Source: Pseudonocardia hydrocarbonoxydans (GTDB taxonomy: Bacteria; Actinomycetota; Actinomycetes; Mycobacteriales; Pseudonocardiaceae). Taken from it: a stretch of DNA of 64,000 bases. Positions 3,793-14,546 of this stretch are shown one piece after another (the stretch's first letter is position 1; each line of letters opens with the position of its first letter). The notes under the pieces are model-generated. The model did no database searches. It was not told the DNA's origin and saw only the letters and a list, made by a program, of their open reading frames with translations. The stretch covers positions 1 through 64,000 of the forward strand of contig NZ_BJNG01000018.1 in NCBI RefSeq assembly GCF_006539565.1. The letters are read 5' to 3'. Position numbers and translations under genes: made by a program.

Positions 3793-5490
3793 TCAGGAGA
3801 GGTTGACGATGTTGCCGTCCCGGTCGATGTCGATCAGGTGCGCGGCGGGGGTGGCGCCCAGGCCCGGCATGGTGCGCATGTCGCCGCAGATCGGGTAGAT
3901 GAACCCGGCGCCGACCGACGCGCGCACCTCGCGCACGGGCAGTCGCCAGCCCGTCGGCGCGCCCGTCAGCGACGCGTCCGACGACAGCGACAGGTGGGTC
4001 TTGGCGATGCAGACCGGGAGGCCGCCGTAGCCGTTCGCCTCGTAGGTCGCGAGCTGGCGGGCGGCGAGCAGGTCGTAGTCCACCCCTGCCGCCCCGTAGA
4101 CCTTCGTGGCGATCGTCTCGATCTTCTCCCGGAGCGGGGCGGAGTCCGGGTAGAGGAAGCGGAAGGCCGACGGCTCGTCGGCGGCCTCGGCGACCGCCTC
4201 GGCCAGCTCCCGGGCCCCGCGACCGCCGTCGGTGAAGTGCGTGCAGACCGCCGCCCGCGCCCCCGCCTCCGCGGCGATCTCGGCGATCGCCGCGTGCTCG
4301 GACGGGTGGTCGCCGGGGAAGGCGTTGATCGCGACGATCGGCGAGACCCCGTGCAGCCGGATGTTCTCGATCTGCTTGCGCAGGTTGGCCCCGCCGATGT
4401 GGACCTCGTCGGGGTTCTCGGCGAACAGCGCGTCGGGCAGCGGCTGCCCGGCGACGATCCGGTGCCGCCCGGAGTGCGCCTTCAGCGCCCGCACCGTCGC
4501 CACGACGACCGCGGCGTCCGGGACGAGCCCCGACGCCCGGCACTTGATGTTGAAGAACCGCTCCGCACCCATGTCGGCCCCGAACCCGGCCTCGGTGACG
4601 AGGAACTCGCCGCTGTGGATGCCGATGAGGTCGGCGACGACCGAGGAGTTGCCGTGGGCGATGTTGCCGAACGGGCCGGCGTGCACGAGGACCGGCGTGT
4701 TCTCCAGCGTCTGCATGAGGTTGGGCTTGAGCGCCTCCCGCATGATGACGGTCATCGCGCCCGCGCCGCCGATGTCCTCCGCGGTGACCGGTGTGCGGCC
4801 CTTCGTGTAGCCGACGACGATGCGCCCGAAGCGTTCGCGCATCTCCTGCAGCGAGCGGCTGAGCGCGAGGATCGCCATCACCTCGCTCGCGGCGGTGATG
4901 TCGAACCCGGTCTGCCGCGGGATGCCGTCCATCCGGCTGCCCAGGCCGACGATCACGTTGCGCAGCGCGCGGTCGTTGACGTCGAGCACCCGCCGCCAGG
5001 TGATGTCGTGCGGGTCGATCCCGGTGGTGTTGCCCTGGAAGAGGTGGTTGTCCAGGACGGCCGAGAGCAGGTTGTGCGCGGCGGTGACCGCGTGGAAGTC
5101 ACCGGTCAGGTGCAGGTTGAGCGTCTCCATGGGGACGACCTGGCTGTAGCCGCCGCCCGCCGCGCCCCCCTTGATCCCGAACGTCGGGCCCATCGACGGC
5201 TGCCGGATCGCCACCGTGGCCTGCCGCCCGGTCGCGCACAGCGCCTGCCCGAGCCCGACGGTGGTGGTGGTCTTGCCCTCGCCCAGCGGTGTGGGGGTGA
5301 CGGCGGACACGACGACGTACTTCGCCCGGGGCCGGCCCGCGAGCTCGTCGACGGCGGAGAGCTTGATCTTGGCGACGTGCTCGCCGTAGGCCTCCATCAG
5401 GTGGGGCCCGATGCCCATGGCGGCGGCGACGTCCCCGAGCGGCTTGAGCGCGGCGCCCTGGGCGATCTGCAGGTCGGACGGGAAGGGCAT
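3793..5490 (-). CDS. fhs: Formate-tetrahydrofolate ligase
   Basis: A 565-aa protein of normal family length (about 556). It carries the ATP loop TPTPLGEGKTTTT at 65-77 and highly conserved blocks throughout (for example QPSMGPTFGIKGGAAGGGYSQ split across about 108-128, and NIKCRASGLVPDAAV). The enzyme links formate, THF and ATP to give 10-formyl-THF. Run in reverse it releases formate and makes ATP. It is the last gene of the six-gene leftward operon starting at mttB, 15 bp after metF. This context suggests the reverse, formate-releasing direction, disposing of methyl groups taken from methylated amines (inference). Confidence 0.97.
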   Translation of the reverse strand: MPFPSDLQIAQGAALKPLGDVAAAMGIGPHLMEAYGEHVAKIKLSAVDELAGRPRAKYVVVSAVTPTPLGEGKTTTTVGLGQALCATGRQATVAIRQPSMGPTFGIKGGAAGGGYSQVVPMETLNLHLTGDFHAVTAAHNLLSAVLDNHLFQGNTTGIDPHDITWRRVLDVNDRALRNVIVGLGSRMDGIPRQTGFDITAASEVMAILALSRSLQEMRERFGRIVVGYTKGRTPVTAEDIGGAGAMTVIMREALKPNLMQTLENTPVLVHAGPFGNIAHGNSSVVADLIGIHSGEFLVTEAGFGADMGAERFFNIKCRASGLVPDAAVVVATVRALKAHSGRHRIVAGQPLPDALFAENPDEVHIGGANLRKQIENIRLHGVSPIVAINAFPGDHPSEHAAIAEIAAEAGARAAVCTHFTDGGRGARELAEAVAEAADEPSAFRFLYPDSAPLREKIETIATKVYGAAGVDYDLLAARQLATYEANGYGGLPVCIAKTHLSLSSDASLTGAPTGWRLPVREVRASVGAGFIYPICGDMRTMPGLGATPAAHLIDIDRDGNIVNLS

Positions 5491-5505
5491 GGGTGTCTCC
5501 AGAGC

Positions 5506-6399
5506 TCAGGCGGTCACGCGCAGTCGGTCTCTGTCGTCGACGACGAAGTGGCCGTCGCGGATGTCGCCCGCCCACGCGGCGGTGGGCGCGAGCGCGCCGA
5601 ACGGGAAGAAGTGGATCCCCCGCAGCAGGCAGGCCGGGTCGGCGGCCGCGGCCGCCGCGACGCCGACGAGGGTGGCGTCGGGATGGTGGACGGGGGAGGT
5701 GGCCAGGCGCAGCACCCCGCCCGCCTGCTGGCGCAGCACCTTCAGCGACGCCCCCACCCCGCAGCGCAGGCCGAACCGCAGCAGGCGGGCGGGCGTCGTC
5801 AGGCCGGGCAGCCCGACGTGCACCGGCACGTCGACGCCGTGGGCCCGGATCCGGCGTTCCCACGCGACGATCGGCTCGGGGGCGAAGGCGAACTGGGTGA
5901 CCAGGTGCAGGTCCAGGCCGCGCTCCCGGGCGATGCGGCACTTGGCCAGCAGCGCGCGCAGCAGCTCGTCGTCGTCGACGTCGGGATGGCCCTCCGGATG
6001 GCCGACGATCCCGACGCGGGTGATGCCGGCGTCGGCCAGCAACCCGCTGTCGAGGACCTGGGCCGCCTCGTGGAACTCGCCGACCGGTGTGGTGAGCGAG
6101 CCGGCGAGGACCAGCAGGTCCCGCACGCCCACCGCGGCGAGGTCGGCGAGCATCCGCCGCAGGGTGGCGTGGTCGGGCACGGCCCGGGCCGCGAGGTGCG
6201 GCACCGGCCGCATCCCGGCGTCGCGGACCGACCGGGCGACCGCCACGGTGTCGGCCCACGGCGTGTGCGGCAGGAACGTGAGGTACACGGCCGTCCCGGG
6301 GGCCAGGACGTCGGCCAGGGGCGGGAGCGTCGGCGCCTCCCGCGGGGTGATCTCCACGCTGAACCGCGCCATCAGCTGCCGCACCACGGCGGGATCCAT
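5506..6399 (-). CDS. metF: 5,10-methylenetetrahydrofolate reductase family protein
   Basis: This 297-aa protein has the MTHFR TIM-barrel pattern: an N-terminal FSVEITP segment (in place of the usual EFFPP), PHLAARAV, DLLVLAGS, and a C-terminal GIHFFPFGAL block. It interconverts methyl-THF and methylene-THF using FAD. In this operon it most likely oxidises methyl-THF made by the pterin methyltransferase at 13683 (inference). It starts 3 bp after the etfA stop and ends 15 bp before fhs. It is a divergent relative of biosynthetic MetF, probably a catabolic paralogue. Confidence 0.9.
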   Translation of the reverse strand: MDPAVVRQLMARFSVEITPREAPTLPPLADVLAPGTAVYLTFLPHTPWADTVAVARSVRDAGMRPVPHLAARAVPDHATLRRMLADLAAVGVRDLLVLAGSLTTPVGEFHEAAQVLDSGLLADAGITRVGIVGHPEGHPDVDDDELLRALLAKCRIARERGLDLHLVTQFAFAPEPIVAWERRIRAHGVDVPVHVGLPGLTTPARLLRFGLRCGVGASLKVLRQQAGGVLRLATSPVHHPDATLVGVAAAAAADPACLLRGIHFFPFGALAPTAAWAGDIRDGHFVVDDRDRLRVTA

Positions 6400-6402
6400 C
6401 CC

Positions 6403-7359
6403 TCAGCCCCGCCGTCGCCGGATCTCGGCGTTGATCGCGGGGACGACCTCGTGCATGTCGCCGATCACCGCGTACGTCGCCTTGGTGACCATCGGCGCGG
6501 CCTCGTCGCTGTTGATCGCCAGGATCGTCCTCGAGCTCGCGCAGCCGGCCCAGTGCTGGATGGCCCCGCTGATGCCGCACGGGATGTAGACGTCGGGGGA
6601 GATGCGGCTGCCGGTCTGGCCGATCTGCTCGTGGTGGGGGCGCCAGCCCAGGCTGGTGACGACCCGGGAGACCCCGAGCGCGCCGCCGAGCAGCTCGGCC
6701 AGCTCGACGGTCGCGTCGAACCCGGCCGCCGACCCGGCCCCGCGCCCGGCGCCGACGACGACCCGCGCCGAGGTGAGCGCGTCCGACCGGCCGGCGTCGT
6801 CGACGGGCTCGACCGACACCACCCGGGCCACGAGGTCGGCGTCGGCGACCTGCGGGGTGAACGTGCGCAGCGTCGCCGTGACCCCGTCGCCGGGCTCGTC
6901 CTCGACGGCGTGGCCCGCGACCGTGAGCACGGCGGGGCGCGCGGGCAGCTCCATCTCCTCCAGCACCGAGCCGCCGACGACCTGACGGGTGACCCGCAGC
7001 GGGTCGCCGGCCCCGGCGGCCACGACGTTCGCGGCCATCGGCACGTCGAGGCGGGCGGCCAGGTGGGCGGCGACCTCCATGCCGCGCGGGGTGCCGGGGG
7101 CGACGACGACCCCGGCGTCGCCCGCCGCGTCCTGGACCGCCGCGGCCCAGGCGGCCCCGCCGAAGGCCGCGACCGCGTCGCCGACGGCGTGGTGGACGAC
7201 CTCGACGCCGTAGCGGCCGAGCTGCTCGACCACCCCGTCCGGCAGGGCCCCGACGACCACCGCGTGCAGCGGGGCGCCCATGCGCGCGGCGAGGGTGAGG
7301 GCCTCGCGCGAGACCTCGGTGGCGCCGGAGGCGTCGGTCTCCACGAACGCGAGAATCAT
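6403..7359 (-). CDS. etfA: Electron transfer flavoprotein alpha subunit
   Basis: A 318-aa protein. The C-terminal third is the canonical FAD domain: GQTGSRISPDVYIPCGISGA followed by IQHWAGCASSRTILAINSD. The N-terminal half is the more variable ETF domain. It pairs with EtfB to carry electrons from flavoprotein dehydrogenases to ETF:quinone oxidoreductase. The ATG at 7359 overlaps the etfB stop by 4 bp, so the two are translationally coupled. The direct neighbour upstream of etfB is the DMGDH-like dehydrogenase, its likely electron donor. Confidence 0.95.
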   Translation of the reverse strand: MILAFVETDASGATEVSREALTLAARMGAPLHAVVVGALPDGVVEQLGRYGVEVVHHAVGDAVAAFGGAAWAAAVQDAAGDAGVVVAPGTPRGMEVAAHLAARLDVPMAANVVAAGAGDPLRVTRQVVGGSVLEEMELPARPAVLTVAGHAVEDEPGDGVTATLRTFTPQVADADLVARVVSVEPVDDAGRSDALTSARVVVGAGRGAGSAAGFDATVELAELLGGALGVSRVVTSLGWRPHHEQIGQTGSRISPDVYIPCGISGAIQHWAGCASSRTILAINSDEAAPMVTKATYAVIGDMHEVVPAINAEIRRRRG

Positions 7360-10630: not shown

Positions 10631-12085
10631 TCAGTCGCCGAGTTCGCGGCGGCGGCGGGTCACGTACGCGGCGAGCTCCTCGCGGACCGCGTCGTCCAGC
10701 GGCGGGGGCTCGTACTCGTCGATCTTCCTGCGGGCCAGCTCGCCGGCGCGGGTGGCGGCGTCCTTGCCGCCGCCCCGCATCCAGCGGTCGTAGTTGTCGG
10801 AGCTGTTGACGAACGGCCGGTAGAAGCAGGTCCGGAACCGTTCCATCGTGTGGGCCGCGCCGAGGAAGTGGCCGCCGTGGCAGACCTCGTCGTGCGCGTC
10901 GAAGGCCAGCGACGCCTCGTCGATCTCCAGCGGGGTGAACTCGTGCTGCAGCATCTCCAGCACCTGGCAGTCCAGGACGAACTTCTCGTAGCTCGCCACC
11001 AGCCCGCCCTCCAGCCAGCCCGCGGAGTGCATCACCCAGTTGATGCCCGCGAGGAACGTCGGGAGCATGGTCATCAGCGACTCGTAGCCGGCCTGGGCGT
11101 CGGCCGTCTGGCTCGACGTCAGCCCGCCGCCCGAGCGCACCGGCAGCCCGAAGTGCCGCGCGATCTGCCCGGTGCACAGCAGCCCGACCGCCGACTCGGG
11201 GGTGCCGAAGCACGGCGACCCGGACTGCATGTCGATGTTGGACAGGAACGACCCGAAGACCACCGGGCAGCCCGGGCGGATCAGCTGGGACAGCGCGATC
11301 CCGGTGAGCGCCTCGGCCATCTGCTGGGCCAGCGCCGCCGGGATCGACACCGGCGACATCGCCCCCATCAACAGGAACGGCGTGATGACGACGGCCTGGC
11401 CGGCCTCGCAGTAGGCGAACTGCGCCTCCAGCATGCGCTCGTCCCAGCGCAGCGGGGAATTACAATTGATCAAGGAGATGGTGGCGGGCGTGCGCTCGAT
11501 GGACTCCCGGCCGCCGAAAAGGATCTCCGTCATGGCCAGGGTGTCGGCGGCATTCACGCCGGAGACGACGTTGCCCATATAGATCTTGTCGGTGAGCGTC
11601 TGCAATGCGAAGGTCATGTCGAGGTGCCGTGAATCGAGCGGGGTGTCCTCCGGCTCGCACACGATCCCGCCCGCCGAGTCGAGCACGCCGAAGCCCTGCG
11701 ACAGGCGGGCGAAGTTCTCGAAGTCGTCCATCGTGGCGTCGCGGCGGACCTCGCCCTCGCGCACGAACGGCGGGCCGTAGACGGCGCCGAACGCCATGGC
11801 GTCGTCGCCGATGTGCACGGAGTTCGCCGGGTTGCGGGCCTGGACGTCGAACGAGCGCGGCGCCTTCGCGACCTGCTCCAGGACGAAGTCCGGGTCGAAC
11901 CGGACGATCCCGGCGCCTTCTTCGGACTCCTCGACCTTCTGCCCGGCCCGGCGGAACAGCTCCAGCGCCCGCTCGTCGCCGAACTCGACCCCGATCTCCG
12001 ACACCAGCCGTCGCCAGCCGCCGTCGAGGGTGGCCATCGCGTCCTCGGAGAGGATCTCGTAACGGGGCATCCGATTGCGGAACAT
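10631..12085 (-). CDS. MttB-family methylamine/betaine:corrinoid methyltransferase (non-pyrrolysine)
   Basis: A 484-aa protein, matching the usual MttB length. It aligns by eye with the trimethylamine methyltransferase superfamily (for example ISLINCNSPLRWDERML, GGGLTSSQTADAQAGYE, and HEVCHGGHFLGAAHT near the C-terminus). The frame is uninterrupted, with no amber codon, so this is a pyrrolysine-independent member, like enzymes acting on glycine betaine, proline betaine or carnitine. It would transfer a methyl to the corrinoid protein at 12996. I chose the ATG at 12085 (GGAGAAG upstream) over a frame extending to 12211, which would run through the divergent promoter. It is the first gene of the leftward operon. 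Confidence 0.9.
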   Translation of the reverse strand: MFRNRMPRYEILSEDAMATLDGGWRRLVSEIGVEFGDERALELFRRAGQKVEESEEGAGIVRFDPDFVLEQVAKAPRSFDVQARNPANSVHIGDDAMAFGAVYGPPFVREGEVRRDATMDDFENFARLSQGFGVLDSAGGIVCEPEDTPLDSRHLDMTFALQTLTDKIYMGNVVSGVNAADTLAMTEILFGGRESIERTPATISLINCNSPLRWDERMLEAQFAYCEAGQAVVITPFLLMGAMSPVSIPAALAQQMAEALTGIALSQLIRPGCPVVFGSFLSNIDMQSGSPCFGTPESAVGLLCTGQIARHFGLPVRSGGGLTSSQTADAQAGYESLMTMLPTFLAGINWVMHSAGWLEGGLVASYEKFVLDCQVLEMLQHEFTPLEIDEASLAFDAHDEVCHGGHFLGAAHTMERFRTCFYRPFVNSSDNYDRWMRGGGKDAATRAGELARRKIDEYEPPPLDDAVREELAAYVTRRRRELGD

Positions 12086-12153
12086 GCGCTTCTCCGCTCG
12101 TGACCGAATTCTGCTCGGGCCATCCGGCCTCTTGACGGGCCGGGCGACCGGCG

Positions 12154-12199
12154 TCACAGTAACCGCGTTTCCAGGAACAGCGGTTCCATACTGTGAAAC
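12154..12199. promoter_or_regulatory. Symmetric divergent promoters with palindromic operator
   Basis: Two perfectly mirrored boxes, TCACAGTA (12154-12161) and TACTGTGA (12189-12196), each contain TACTGT, which fits the actinobacterial -10 pattern TAnnnT, pointing outward to mttB and to iclR. Between them, centred on 12173, is an imperfect 25-bp palindrome (12161-12185) with 10 of 12 arm pairs matched: outer halves AACCGC and GCGGTT, inner TTCC-A-GGAA. A second inverted repeat, GGAAC-N4-GTTCC (12174-12187), overlaps it. -35 boxes are weak. The IclR protein encoded next door is the obvious ligand (inference). Confidence 0.7.
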
Positions 12200-12228: not shown

Positions 12229-12999
12229 GTGATGGCTACGCATACGGGCAGCCAGGCCGTCGAACGCGCGGGCGCCCTGCTCGGCGTCATCGTCGAGTCG
12301 GGGACGCCGCGCACCTTCAGCTCGCTCGTCGACGAGCTCGGCATGGCGAAATCCACCACCTCCCGGCTCCTGCACGCCCTGGAGCGCAGCAGGTTGGTGC
12401 ACCGCGACCGGGCGGGGGCGTTCCGCCCGGGCGCGCTGTTCTCGCTGCACGCGGCCCGGCCCAGCGCGCTGCACGACCTCTCCGAGCTCGCCCGGCCGAC
12501 GATGGAGCACCTGTCGGAACTGTCGCGGGAGACGGTGAACCTCGCCGTCCCGCGCGGCGGCACGCCCGTGCAGATCGACCAGGTGGAGAGCCGCTACCTG
12601 CTCGGGGCCGTCAGCTGGGTCGGGGTCGACGTGCCCGCGCACTGCACGGCGCTGGGCAAGGTGCTCTACGCCTACGGGGCGCTCGACCTGCCGCGCGGGG
12701 CGCTCGAACGCCGCACCGCGCACTCCCCGGTCGACCGTGCGCAGTTCGACCACGCCCTGATCGAGGTGCGGCGCCGGGGCTGGGCCGCCTCGCTCGACGA
12801 GCTGGAGCTGGGGCTCGCCGCCGTCGGTGCACCGGTGCGGACGGTCGACGGCACCGTCGTCGCGGCCGTCTCGGTGTCCGGCCCGACGAGCCGGGTCAAC
12901 GAGTACGGCATCACCCGCCTCGGCGACCTGCTGGTCGCCGAGCTCCGCGGCCTGTCGGCGCTGCTGGGCCACTACCCCGCTCGAAGGGACGTGTCATGA
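12229..12999 (+). CDS. IclR-family transcriptional regulator
   Basis: A 256-aa protein with an N-terminal winged helix (SLVDELGMAKSTTSRLLHALE at about 31-51) and a C-terminal IclR effector domain (PAHCTALGKVLYAY; GWAASLDELELGLAAVGAPV). It starts GTG-ATG at 12229/12232 behind GAGGCGG. It is the first gene of the rightward arm and overlaps the corrinoid-protein gene by 4 bp. It probably controls both arms through the palindrome at 12161-12185, with a methylated substrate or its product as effector (inference). Confidence 0.92.
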   Translation: MMATHTGSQAVERAGALLGVIVESGTPRTFSSLVDELGMAKSTTSRLLHALERSRLVHRDRAGAFRPGALFSLHAARPSALHDLSELARPTMEHLSELSRETVNLAVPRGGTPVQIDQVESRYLLGAVSWVGVDVPAHCTALGKVLYAYGALDLPRGALERRTAHSPVDRAQFDHALIEVRRRGWAASLDELELGLAAVGAPVRTVDGTVVAAVSVSGPTSRVNEYGITRLGDLLVAELRGLSALLGHYPARRDVS

Positions 13000-13679
13000 C
13001 CGACCACGCTGCGACAGAACACGCGGCGATCCTGCGCGGGCTCTACGACGAGACCCTCGTCGGCAACCGGCCGCGCGTGCTGGAGCTGACCCACGAAGGG
13101 CTCGCCGCCGGGCTGACGCCGGAGACGATGCTGTTCGACGCGCTCATCCCCTCGCTGGAGGAGGTCGGCGCCCGCTTCGAGCGCGGCGACTTCTTCGTCC
13201 CCGAGATGCTGGTGGCGGGCAAGGCGATGAGCGGAGCGCTGGACGTGCTGCGCCCGCTGCTGGCCGAGACCGGCGCCCGCACCGTCGGCACGTTCCTGAT
13301 GAGCACCGTCAAGGGCGACGTGCACGACATCGGCAAGAACCTGGTCAACATCATGCTGGAGGGCGCCGGCTTCCACGTGATCGACCTGGGCGTGCAGGTC
13401 TCGCCGGAGAAGGTGGTCGCCGGCATCCGCGAGCACAACCCGGACATCGTCGGCTTCTCGGCGTTCCTCACCACGACCATGCCGATGTTCAAGGCCAACA
13501 TCAACGCGCTGCAGAAGGCGGGCCTGCGCGACCAGGTGATCGTGATGGTCGGCGGCGCCCCGGTCACCCAGGAGTACGCCGACGCCGTCGGCGCCGACGG
13601 GTACGCCGCCGACGCCGCCACCGCCGTCCGCCGGGCCAAGGAGCTGCTCGCCGCCCGTCGCGCCACCGTGGGGGTCTGA
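12996..13679 (+). CDS. Corrinoid (B12-binding) methyl carrier protein, MttC/MtbC type
   Basis: A 227-aa protein with the two domains of methyltransferase corrinoid proteins: a helical cap (about 1-90) and a Rossmann-like B12 domain (about 95-215). It has the base-off ligand motif DVHDIG (108-113, His110), the TTTMPMF region and GGAPV. It shuttles a methyl between the MttB-family enzyme and the pterin methyltransferase. The ATG at 12996 overlaps the iclR stop by 4 bp, and the next gene starts 3 bp after its stop. Confidence 0.95.
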   Translation: MTDHAATEHAAILRGLYDETLVGNRPRVLELTHEGLAAGLTPETMLFDALIPSLEEVGARFERGDFFVPEMLVAGKAMSGALDVLRPLLAETGARTVGTFLMSTVKGDVHDIGKNLVNIMLEGAGFHVIDLGVQVSPEKVVAGIREHNPDIVGFSAFLTTTMPMFKANINALQKAGLRDQVIVMVGGAPVTQEYADAVGADGYAADAATAVRRAKELLAARRATVGV

Positions 13680-13682
13680 GAC

Positions 13683-14546
13683 GTGCACACCGTCCTGCGT
13701 TCCGCGACCCGCGAGGTCGTCATCGGCGGCGACCAGCCGTTCTGCCTGATCGGGGAGCGCCTCAACCCGACCGGCCGCAAGATCTTCGCCGAGCAGCTGC
13801 GCCGCGGCGACCTCTCGCGCATCGCCGTCGACGTCGAGGAGCAGGTCGCCGCGGGCGCGACGATGCTGGACGTCAACATGGGCATCCCGCTCGTCGACGA
13901 GGCCGAGCTGCTCGCGACGGCCGTCACGATGGTGCAGGACCTCACCGACCTGCCGCTGGTCATCGACTCGTCGGTCGTCGAGGCGCTGGAGGCCGGGCTC
14001 GCGGTCTACCGGGGCAAGGCGCTGGTCAACTCGGTCACCGGCGAGCGCGAACGGCTCGACGCGATCCTGCCGATCGTCGCCCGGCACGGGGCGGCGGTGA
14101 TCGCCCTGCCCAACGAGGAGGACGAGATCCCCGACGAGCCGGAGCGGCGGCTGGAGATCACCAGGAAGATCGTCGACATCGCGGTCGGCGAGTACGGCAT
14201 CCCGGTCGAGGACATCGTGATCGACCCGCTGGCGATGCCGGTGGGCGCCGACACGTCGCTGGTGCGGACGACCCTGCGCACCATCGAGCTGATCCACGAC
14301 GAGCTCGGCCTCAACATGACCCTCGGCGCCTCCAACGTCTCGTTCGGCATGCCCGGACGCGCCGCGCTGGGCGCGGGGTTCCTGGCCATGGCGATGCACG
14401 CGGGCCTGACCAGCGCGATCATGGACGTGCGCTCCCCGCAGATCGTCGAGGCGGTCAAGGCGGCCGACCTGCTGCTGGGCAACGACGACTGGGGCGCGGC
14501 GTGGATCGCGCGGTTCCGGGCCGCCCAGGCCGCGGCGGGGACCTGA
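13683..14546 (+). CDS. Methyltetrahydrofolate:corrinoid methyltransferase (MtrH/AcsE-like)
   Basis: A 287-aa pterin-binding TIM barrel. It opens with IGERLNPTGRK (the conserved INERxN-type motif), then VAAGATMLDVNMG, VIDSSVVEALEAGL and VNSVTGE, the folate-binding face of the MeTr/DHPS fold. It would move methyl between the corrinoid protein and THF. The start is GTG at 13683, 3 bp after the corrinoid gene. It is single-domain, unlike MetH, and matches partners of MttB-type systems. Confidence 0.93.
   Translation: MHTVLRSATREVVIGGDQPFCLIGERLNPTGRKIFAEQLRRGDLSRIAVDVEEQVAAGATMLDVNMGIPLVDEAELLATAVTMVQDLTDLPLVIDSSVVEALEAGLAVYRGKALVNSVTGERERLDAILPIVARHGAAVIALPNEEDEIPDEPERRLEITRKIVDIAVGEYGIPVEDIVIDPLAMPVGADTSLVRTTLRTIELIHDELGLNMTLGASNVSFGMPGRAALGAGFLAMAMHAGLTSAIMDVRSPQIVEAVKAADLLLGNDDWGAAWIARFRAAQAAAGT

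Follow-up and report, generated by a model that had tools for sequence, protein, structure and literature searches.

A predicted bidirectional promoter with an adjoining predicted three-box IclR operator between mttB and iclR in an actinobacterial gene cluster

The window analysed here, a stretch of DNA of 64 kb, carries a gene for an MttB-superfamily methyltransferase (mttB) and a divergent gene for an IclR-family regulator (iclR) on either side of a 140-bp intergenic region. The initial annotation had proposed mirror-image promoters flanking a 25-bp palindrome to which an IclR dimer or tetramer could bind. Comparison with orthologous loci points to a predicted control site that is conserved across many actinobacterial families and is asymmetric: relative to a common -10 element, the operator would be downstream for transcription of iclR and upstream for that of mttB.

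The gene cluster and the loci compared

The genes next to the intergenic region are as follows.

10631..12088, minus strand: mttB, MttB-superfamily methyltransferase, 485 aa (Pfam PF06253, E=1.4e-181; ATG at 12088; no in-frame TAG)
12229..12999, plus strand: iclR, IclR-family regulator (ORF from GTG 12229; PF01614, E=7.7e-35, and PF09339)
13002..13679, plus strand: corrinoid protein gene, directly after iclR in the same operon (B12-binding domains; best NCBIfam match MtgC, below cut-off)
13683..14546, plus strand: methyl-tetrahydrofolate:corrinoid methyltransferase type protein (PF00809; PRK07535 above cut-off)

The mttB start is kept in orthologs and is preceded by a GGAG-type ribosome site. 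For iclR the ATG at 12232 is a more likely start than the GTG at 12229, as orthologs begin at the equivalent ATG. The regulator belongs to the IclR family, with 38.1 bits for the PF09339 HTH (cut-off 22) and 120.4 bits for the PF01614 C-terminal effector domain (cut-off 24); assignment to the PcaR/PcaU/PobR subfamily (TIGR02431) was rejected at 97.3 bits against a cut-off of 284.75. A pyrrolysine trimethylamine methyltransferase (TIGR02369) was likewise rejected for MttB, on a score of 269.9 bits against a cut-off of 525 and an open frame without TAG. By E-value, MttB is nearer to the glycine betaine methyltransferase 9yce than to the TMA enzyme 7xcl.

The cluster also encodes a RACo-like protein, ETF subunits, an FAD/GcvT dehydrogenase, an MTHFR-like protein and formate-tetrahydrofolate ligase. 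The mttB side extends on the minus strand at 3793-7359 with the genes for ETF alpha, the MTHFR-like protein and formate-tetrahydrofolate ligase, which suggests that the removed methyl groups undergo C1 oxidation. This gene content suggests that the regulator's ligand is a betaine-type compound. The MtgBCD-type glycine betaine demethylation clusters (PMC12478193) similarly contain an MttB-superfamily methyltransferase, a corrinoid protein, a methyl-tetrahydrofolate methyltransferase and a RACo-like protein, together with a dimethylglycine/sarcosine-type dehydrogenase and C1-folate enzymes; the cluster described here differs in that its substrate is putative and in its predicted IclR control from a divergent promoter. 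A literature search of open-access papers found no IclR regulator of MttB clusters.

The closest named relatives of the window's locus are in Pseudonocardia. A protein search for IclR orthologs gave identities of 64-89% for Pseudonocardia and a second family, 46% for one ortholog from a different family of the order and 44-53% across the class, and the regulators of four Geodermatophilaceae loci are 51-53% identical. About 50 orthologous loci were found in all, most with mttB divergent and the corrinoid protein gene after iclR. Geometry and pairing were counted in 40 loci, comprising 17 of Pseudonocardia type and 23 others; L108 and L112 were omitted as likely paralogs (regulator relatives with neither the cluster, box 1 nor TTGAC), and L010, L109 and L113 as near-identical. 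Operator, promoters and spacing are kept in the 17 Pseudonocardia-type loci and in about 25 more distant ones (regulator 44-53% identical, seven further families), although these loci share ancestry, so that the counts overstate the number of independent events.

Inverted repeats and the predicted operator

Three repeats can be found in the intergenic sequence. The outer repeat exists as annotated, with TCACAGTA at 12154-12161 and TACTGTGA at 12189-12196 complementary at 8/8 positions and 27 nt apart. The palindrome arms AACCGCGTTTCC (12161-12172) and GGAACAGCGGTT (12174-12185) are complementary at 10/12 positions, and the palindrome, said to be centred between the outer arms, is displaced from their centre by 2 bp (12173 against 12175). 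The third repeat, GGAAC-N4-GTTCC, lies at 12174-12187. In dinucleotide shuffles of the 140-bp region, a perfect 8-bp inverted repeat (loop 3-40) arose in 6%, a palindrome with 12-nt arms, at least 10/12 paired (loop 0-8), in 2.6%, and GGAAC-N4-GTTCC in 0.2%. Across the window there are 276 8-bp repeats of the outer-repeat kind, and 19-35 palindromes of comparable quality per loop length.

Conservation separates the three. The outer repeat is perfect in one of the 17 Pseudonocardia-type loci, the window's own, and in none of the 23 other actinobacterial loci, and a search for the 25-bp palindrome upstream of the homologous clusters gave a perfect copy in 0/40. Pairing within that palindrome occurs in 47% and 32% of cells in the two locus groups, with about 31% expected from base composition, and its left arm, which would have formed half of the annotated operator, is without conservation. 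GGAAC/GTTCC is paired in 91% and 97% of cells, and, on this comparison, is the only conserved element among the three repeats. The sequence TACTGTGA is, by alignment, this species' own variant of a spacer and a third operator box, and its match to TCACAGTA is most readily taken as coincidental. Mirror symmetry as a design feature fails in every relative; as judged from these loci it is mostly chance, yet it sits on a real conserved control site, for which the following elements are predicted.

12174..12178, plus strand: operator box 1, GGAAC (conserved)
12183..12188, plus strand: operator box 2, GTTCCA (conserved in all groups)
12194..12199, plus strand: operator box 3, TGAAAC, consensus TGGAAC (conserved in both main groups, poor in Geodermatophilaceae)
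12174..12199, no strand assigned: predicted complete three-box IclR operator, GGAAC-N4-GTTCCA-N5-TGGAAC (unique in genome)

An IclR-type operator between mttB and iclR, anticipated by the initial annotation, is supported by the comparison, with binding predicted from the association of the site with its cognate regulator, as the site precedes the iclR ortholog in the loci examined. Boxes 2-3 are paired in 82% and 88% of cells in the two locus groups. Three-box IclR sites of alternating direction have been predicted for 32 orthologous groups (Suvorova and Gelfand 2021) and are known for PcaU (PMC8222616). The present operator has the same three alternating boxes as those of PcaU, PobR and HmgR (PMC8222616): boxes 2-3 (GTTCCA-N5-TGGAAC across loci) fit the group 1 motif GTTYCRYW3RYGRAAC, the window's own copy deviating in the right arm (GTGAAAC for ATGGAAC), and boxes 1-2 (GGAAC-N4-GTTCCA) resemble the group 2 motif TGRAACAN1-2TGTTYCA, with only partial retention of its inner A and T. 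Unlike the PcaU, PobR and HmgR operators, it belongs to a cobalamin-dependent methyltransferase cluster, not to aromatic or sugar catabolism, and is predicted to stand beside a common -10. The regulator group may already be among those in the supplementary tables of PMC8222616.

The site at 12174-12199 is the sole one with fewer than three mismatches to the consensus in the 5.29-Mb genome, which argues for a local switch. A wider regulon was considered and rejected, as the three-box site is unique and three-mismatch matches occur at background level. The shorter GTTCCA-N5-TGGAAC, searched across the genus, gave many scattered matches.

Two predicted promoters on shared bases

Alignment of the loci indicates the following promoter elements.

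12132..12137, plus strand: -35 of the iclR-facing promoter, TTGACG (TTGAC aligned in 17/17 Pseudonocardia-type loci; match of at least 5/6 in 37/40)
12155..12160, plus strand: -10 of the iclR-facing promoter, CACAGT (17 bp past the -35; nAnnnT invariant in 17/17; predicted start 12167)
12156..12161, minus strand: -10 of the mttB-facing promoter, TACTGT (TAnnnT, no -35; predicted start 12149)

Divergent promoters for mttB and iclR are borne out by the comparison, as is the minus-strand -10 (12161-12156) that had been annotated for mttB, which is conserved as TAnnnT. A plus-strand TACTGT at 12189 had been assigned to iclR; the conserved promoter is instead TTGACG-N17-CACAGT at 12132-12160, overlapping the mttB -10. 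It was obtained from the alignment, a sigma-70 consensus scan having found no promoter, because the -10 CACAGT departs from TATAAT. Separate -10 elements on the minus strand at 12161 and the plus strand at 12189, symmetric about a palindrome bound by an IclR dimer or tetramer, are most improbable: the repeats do exist in the window and some close relatives have a TAnnnT-like sequence at the 12189 position, but a plus-strand promoter there would be without a -35, the conserved iclR promoter lies elsewhere, and neither repeat is kept among the loci.

In 36/40 loci exactly 13 bp separate the minus-strand TAnnnT from box 1, and no other offset (2-39) occurs in more than 3; at the fixed position the element is missing in the four Geodermatophilaceae loci and in L023. 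A -35 for mttB was sought in the 40 loci and none reaches even 4/6 matches, a level attained by 10% of background positions. In all 17 Pseudonocardia-type loci the block nAnnnTA is invariant, so that -11A and -7T are reciprocally paired on opposite strands and both -10 elements occupy the same bases, with the predicted starts at 12167 (plus) and 12149 (minus) 18 bp apart. Part of the conservation of the mttB -10 in Pseudonocardia is not independent because of these shared bases: the iclR -10 itself accounts for A2 and T6 of the block but not for A7. In the remaining loci the iclR -10 lies 5 bp closer to the operator, the two -10 elements overlap by TA only (AnnnTAnnnT) and the predicted starts are about 23 bp apart; the A at -18, which falls outside the iclR -10, is kept in 21/25, and this lends independent support to the mttB -10.

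Two Pseudonocardia sp. CNS-004 entries (L021/L044) provide what may be regarded as a natural control for the mttB -10, though this is a single locus and would not suffice by itself. There the ORF upstream of iclR has the same direction as iclR, with no divergent gene, and the 8.8 kb examined contained no cluster gene. The mttB -10 has degenerated to GACCCTG (CAGGGT on the minus strand; TA to TG), with TTGACG and all three boxes intact. This bears on the suggestion that the AnnnTA block belongs to the binding site of the regulator and that mttB starts elsewhere, which we regard as very unlikely. A fixed distance to the operator would be expected in that case too, but the block matches a TAnnnT -10 and not the GGAAC or GTTCC of an IclR box, the three bases inside it are free to vary, and it is lost where no divergent gene exists, though the operator is kept.

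Bidirectional promoters, with two start sites 7-25 bp apart on opposite strands, have been described by Warman, Grainger and colleagues, including reciprocally paired -11A and -7T with starts 18 bp apart (PMC10268837), and their regulation has been studied only recently, in E. coli (PMC12825309). The present locus shares with them the -11A/-7T pairing and, by prediction, mutually exclusive polymerase binding and the 18-bp distance, and like acrR/acrA it would place a regulator gene and its target on one promoter. It differs in being actinobacterial, with predicted starts, and in combining a -35 for one direction with an operator at the corresponding position for the other. Among the further families the -10 elements overlap by the TA step only, with about 23 bp between predicted starts. 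All components are of known kinds, and their arrangement and target appear undescribed.

Proposed control and variant loci

Comparison establishes the elements, their conservation and their spacing; from these we infer IclR binding, where transcription starts, whether regulation is positive or negative, and the ligand. On an evenly balanced judgement, 12132-12199 would be a bidirectional promoter with an adjoining three-box IclR operator, with the regulator repressing its own gene and most likely activating mttB with ligand. RNA polymerase would open one set of -10 bases (12155-12161) for transcription either way: rightward into iclR and the corrinoid-protein operon, from the promoter with the TTGAC -35, and leftward into mttB, where the -35 is absent and the operator takes its place. 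The IclR protein on 12174-12199, just downstream of the iclR start, would block the iclR promoter, and would at the same time occupy positions of roughly -25 to -50 relative to the mttB start, with constant spacing, so that the ligand-bound protein would most likely recruit or position polymerase at mttB, repression there being less likely. The ligand would be the cluster's substrate or product. One IclR-type protein would probably switch both halves of the methylated-amine gene cluster, and polymerase would occupy one promoter or the other, both as first annotated.

Many IclR-family proteins are repressors. A serious rival, if less likely, is that within the same architecture the unliganded IclR protein represses both promoters and is released from the DNA on ligand binding, a weak mttB promoter then working from its -10 alone. 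Joint induction of the two arms would be expected, as each contributes to one pathway, and the operator overlaps or adjoins both promoters. The corrinoid protein is required by that same pathway and is encoded behind the autorepressed iclR, so that plain repression of both arms fits as well. However, steric block needs neither the missing mttB -35 in 40 loci nor the rigid spacing between operator and mttB -10.

That spacing contrasts with the iclR side, where the distance from the start of TTGAC to box 1 is 42-43, 37-39 or 31-33 bp by group (L011 has also a second, nearer TTGAC and L111 a nearer one, the usual ones being present in the alignment). A variable distance for iclR and a fixed one for mttB would be expected if only the mttB side needs contact between regulator and polymerase. 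A further, rather doubtful extension is a direction switch, in which the bound protein, on an operator rigidly tied to the -35-less mttB promoter that shares its -10 with iclR, sets the direction of polymerase, the iclR promoter having shifted in evolution by roughly half-helical-turn steps (TTGAC about 42, 37-38 or 32 bp from box 1).

The arrangement would offer a model, testable at the level of single bases, of how cobalamin-dependent use of methylated amines is controlled in actinobacteria, a few small-genome ones among them. It would also be a natural, conserved case of a bidirectional promoter with different elements for each direction, a -35 on one side and an operator on the other.

Several loci depart from the common arrangement. 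In L011/L039 and L016 a dehydrogenase gene is apparently divergent instead of mttB, and TAnnnT is kept. In P. xinjiangensis (L039/L011) mttB appears deleted or degraded, with only an mttB-like start remnant and a weak corrinoid protein match (42%), and the operator and both promoter elements are intact. In the Geodermatophilaceae (L047-L050) the operator is down to boxes 1-2, which read TGTGGAAC-N4-GTTCCACA in L048-L050, and the third box is poor; the promoter is about one helical turn nearer the operator, and TTGACG abuts the likely mttB ribosome-binding site in 3/4. A second perfect GTTCCA-N5-TGGAAC is found at G015:C221:48848-48864 (L086), past the 3' end of the iclR ortholog and about 1.2 kb from the first. 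Two such sites lie 37 bp apart at G019:C20:49366-49419 (L064), in a genome without a close ortholog of the regulator, and are perhaps a tandem operator of another IclR protein.
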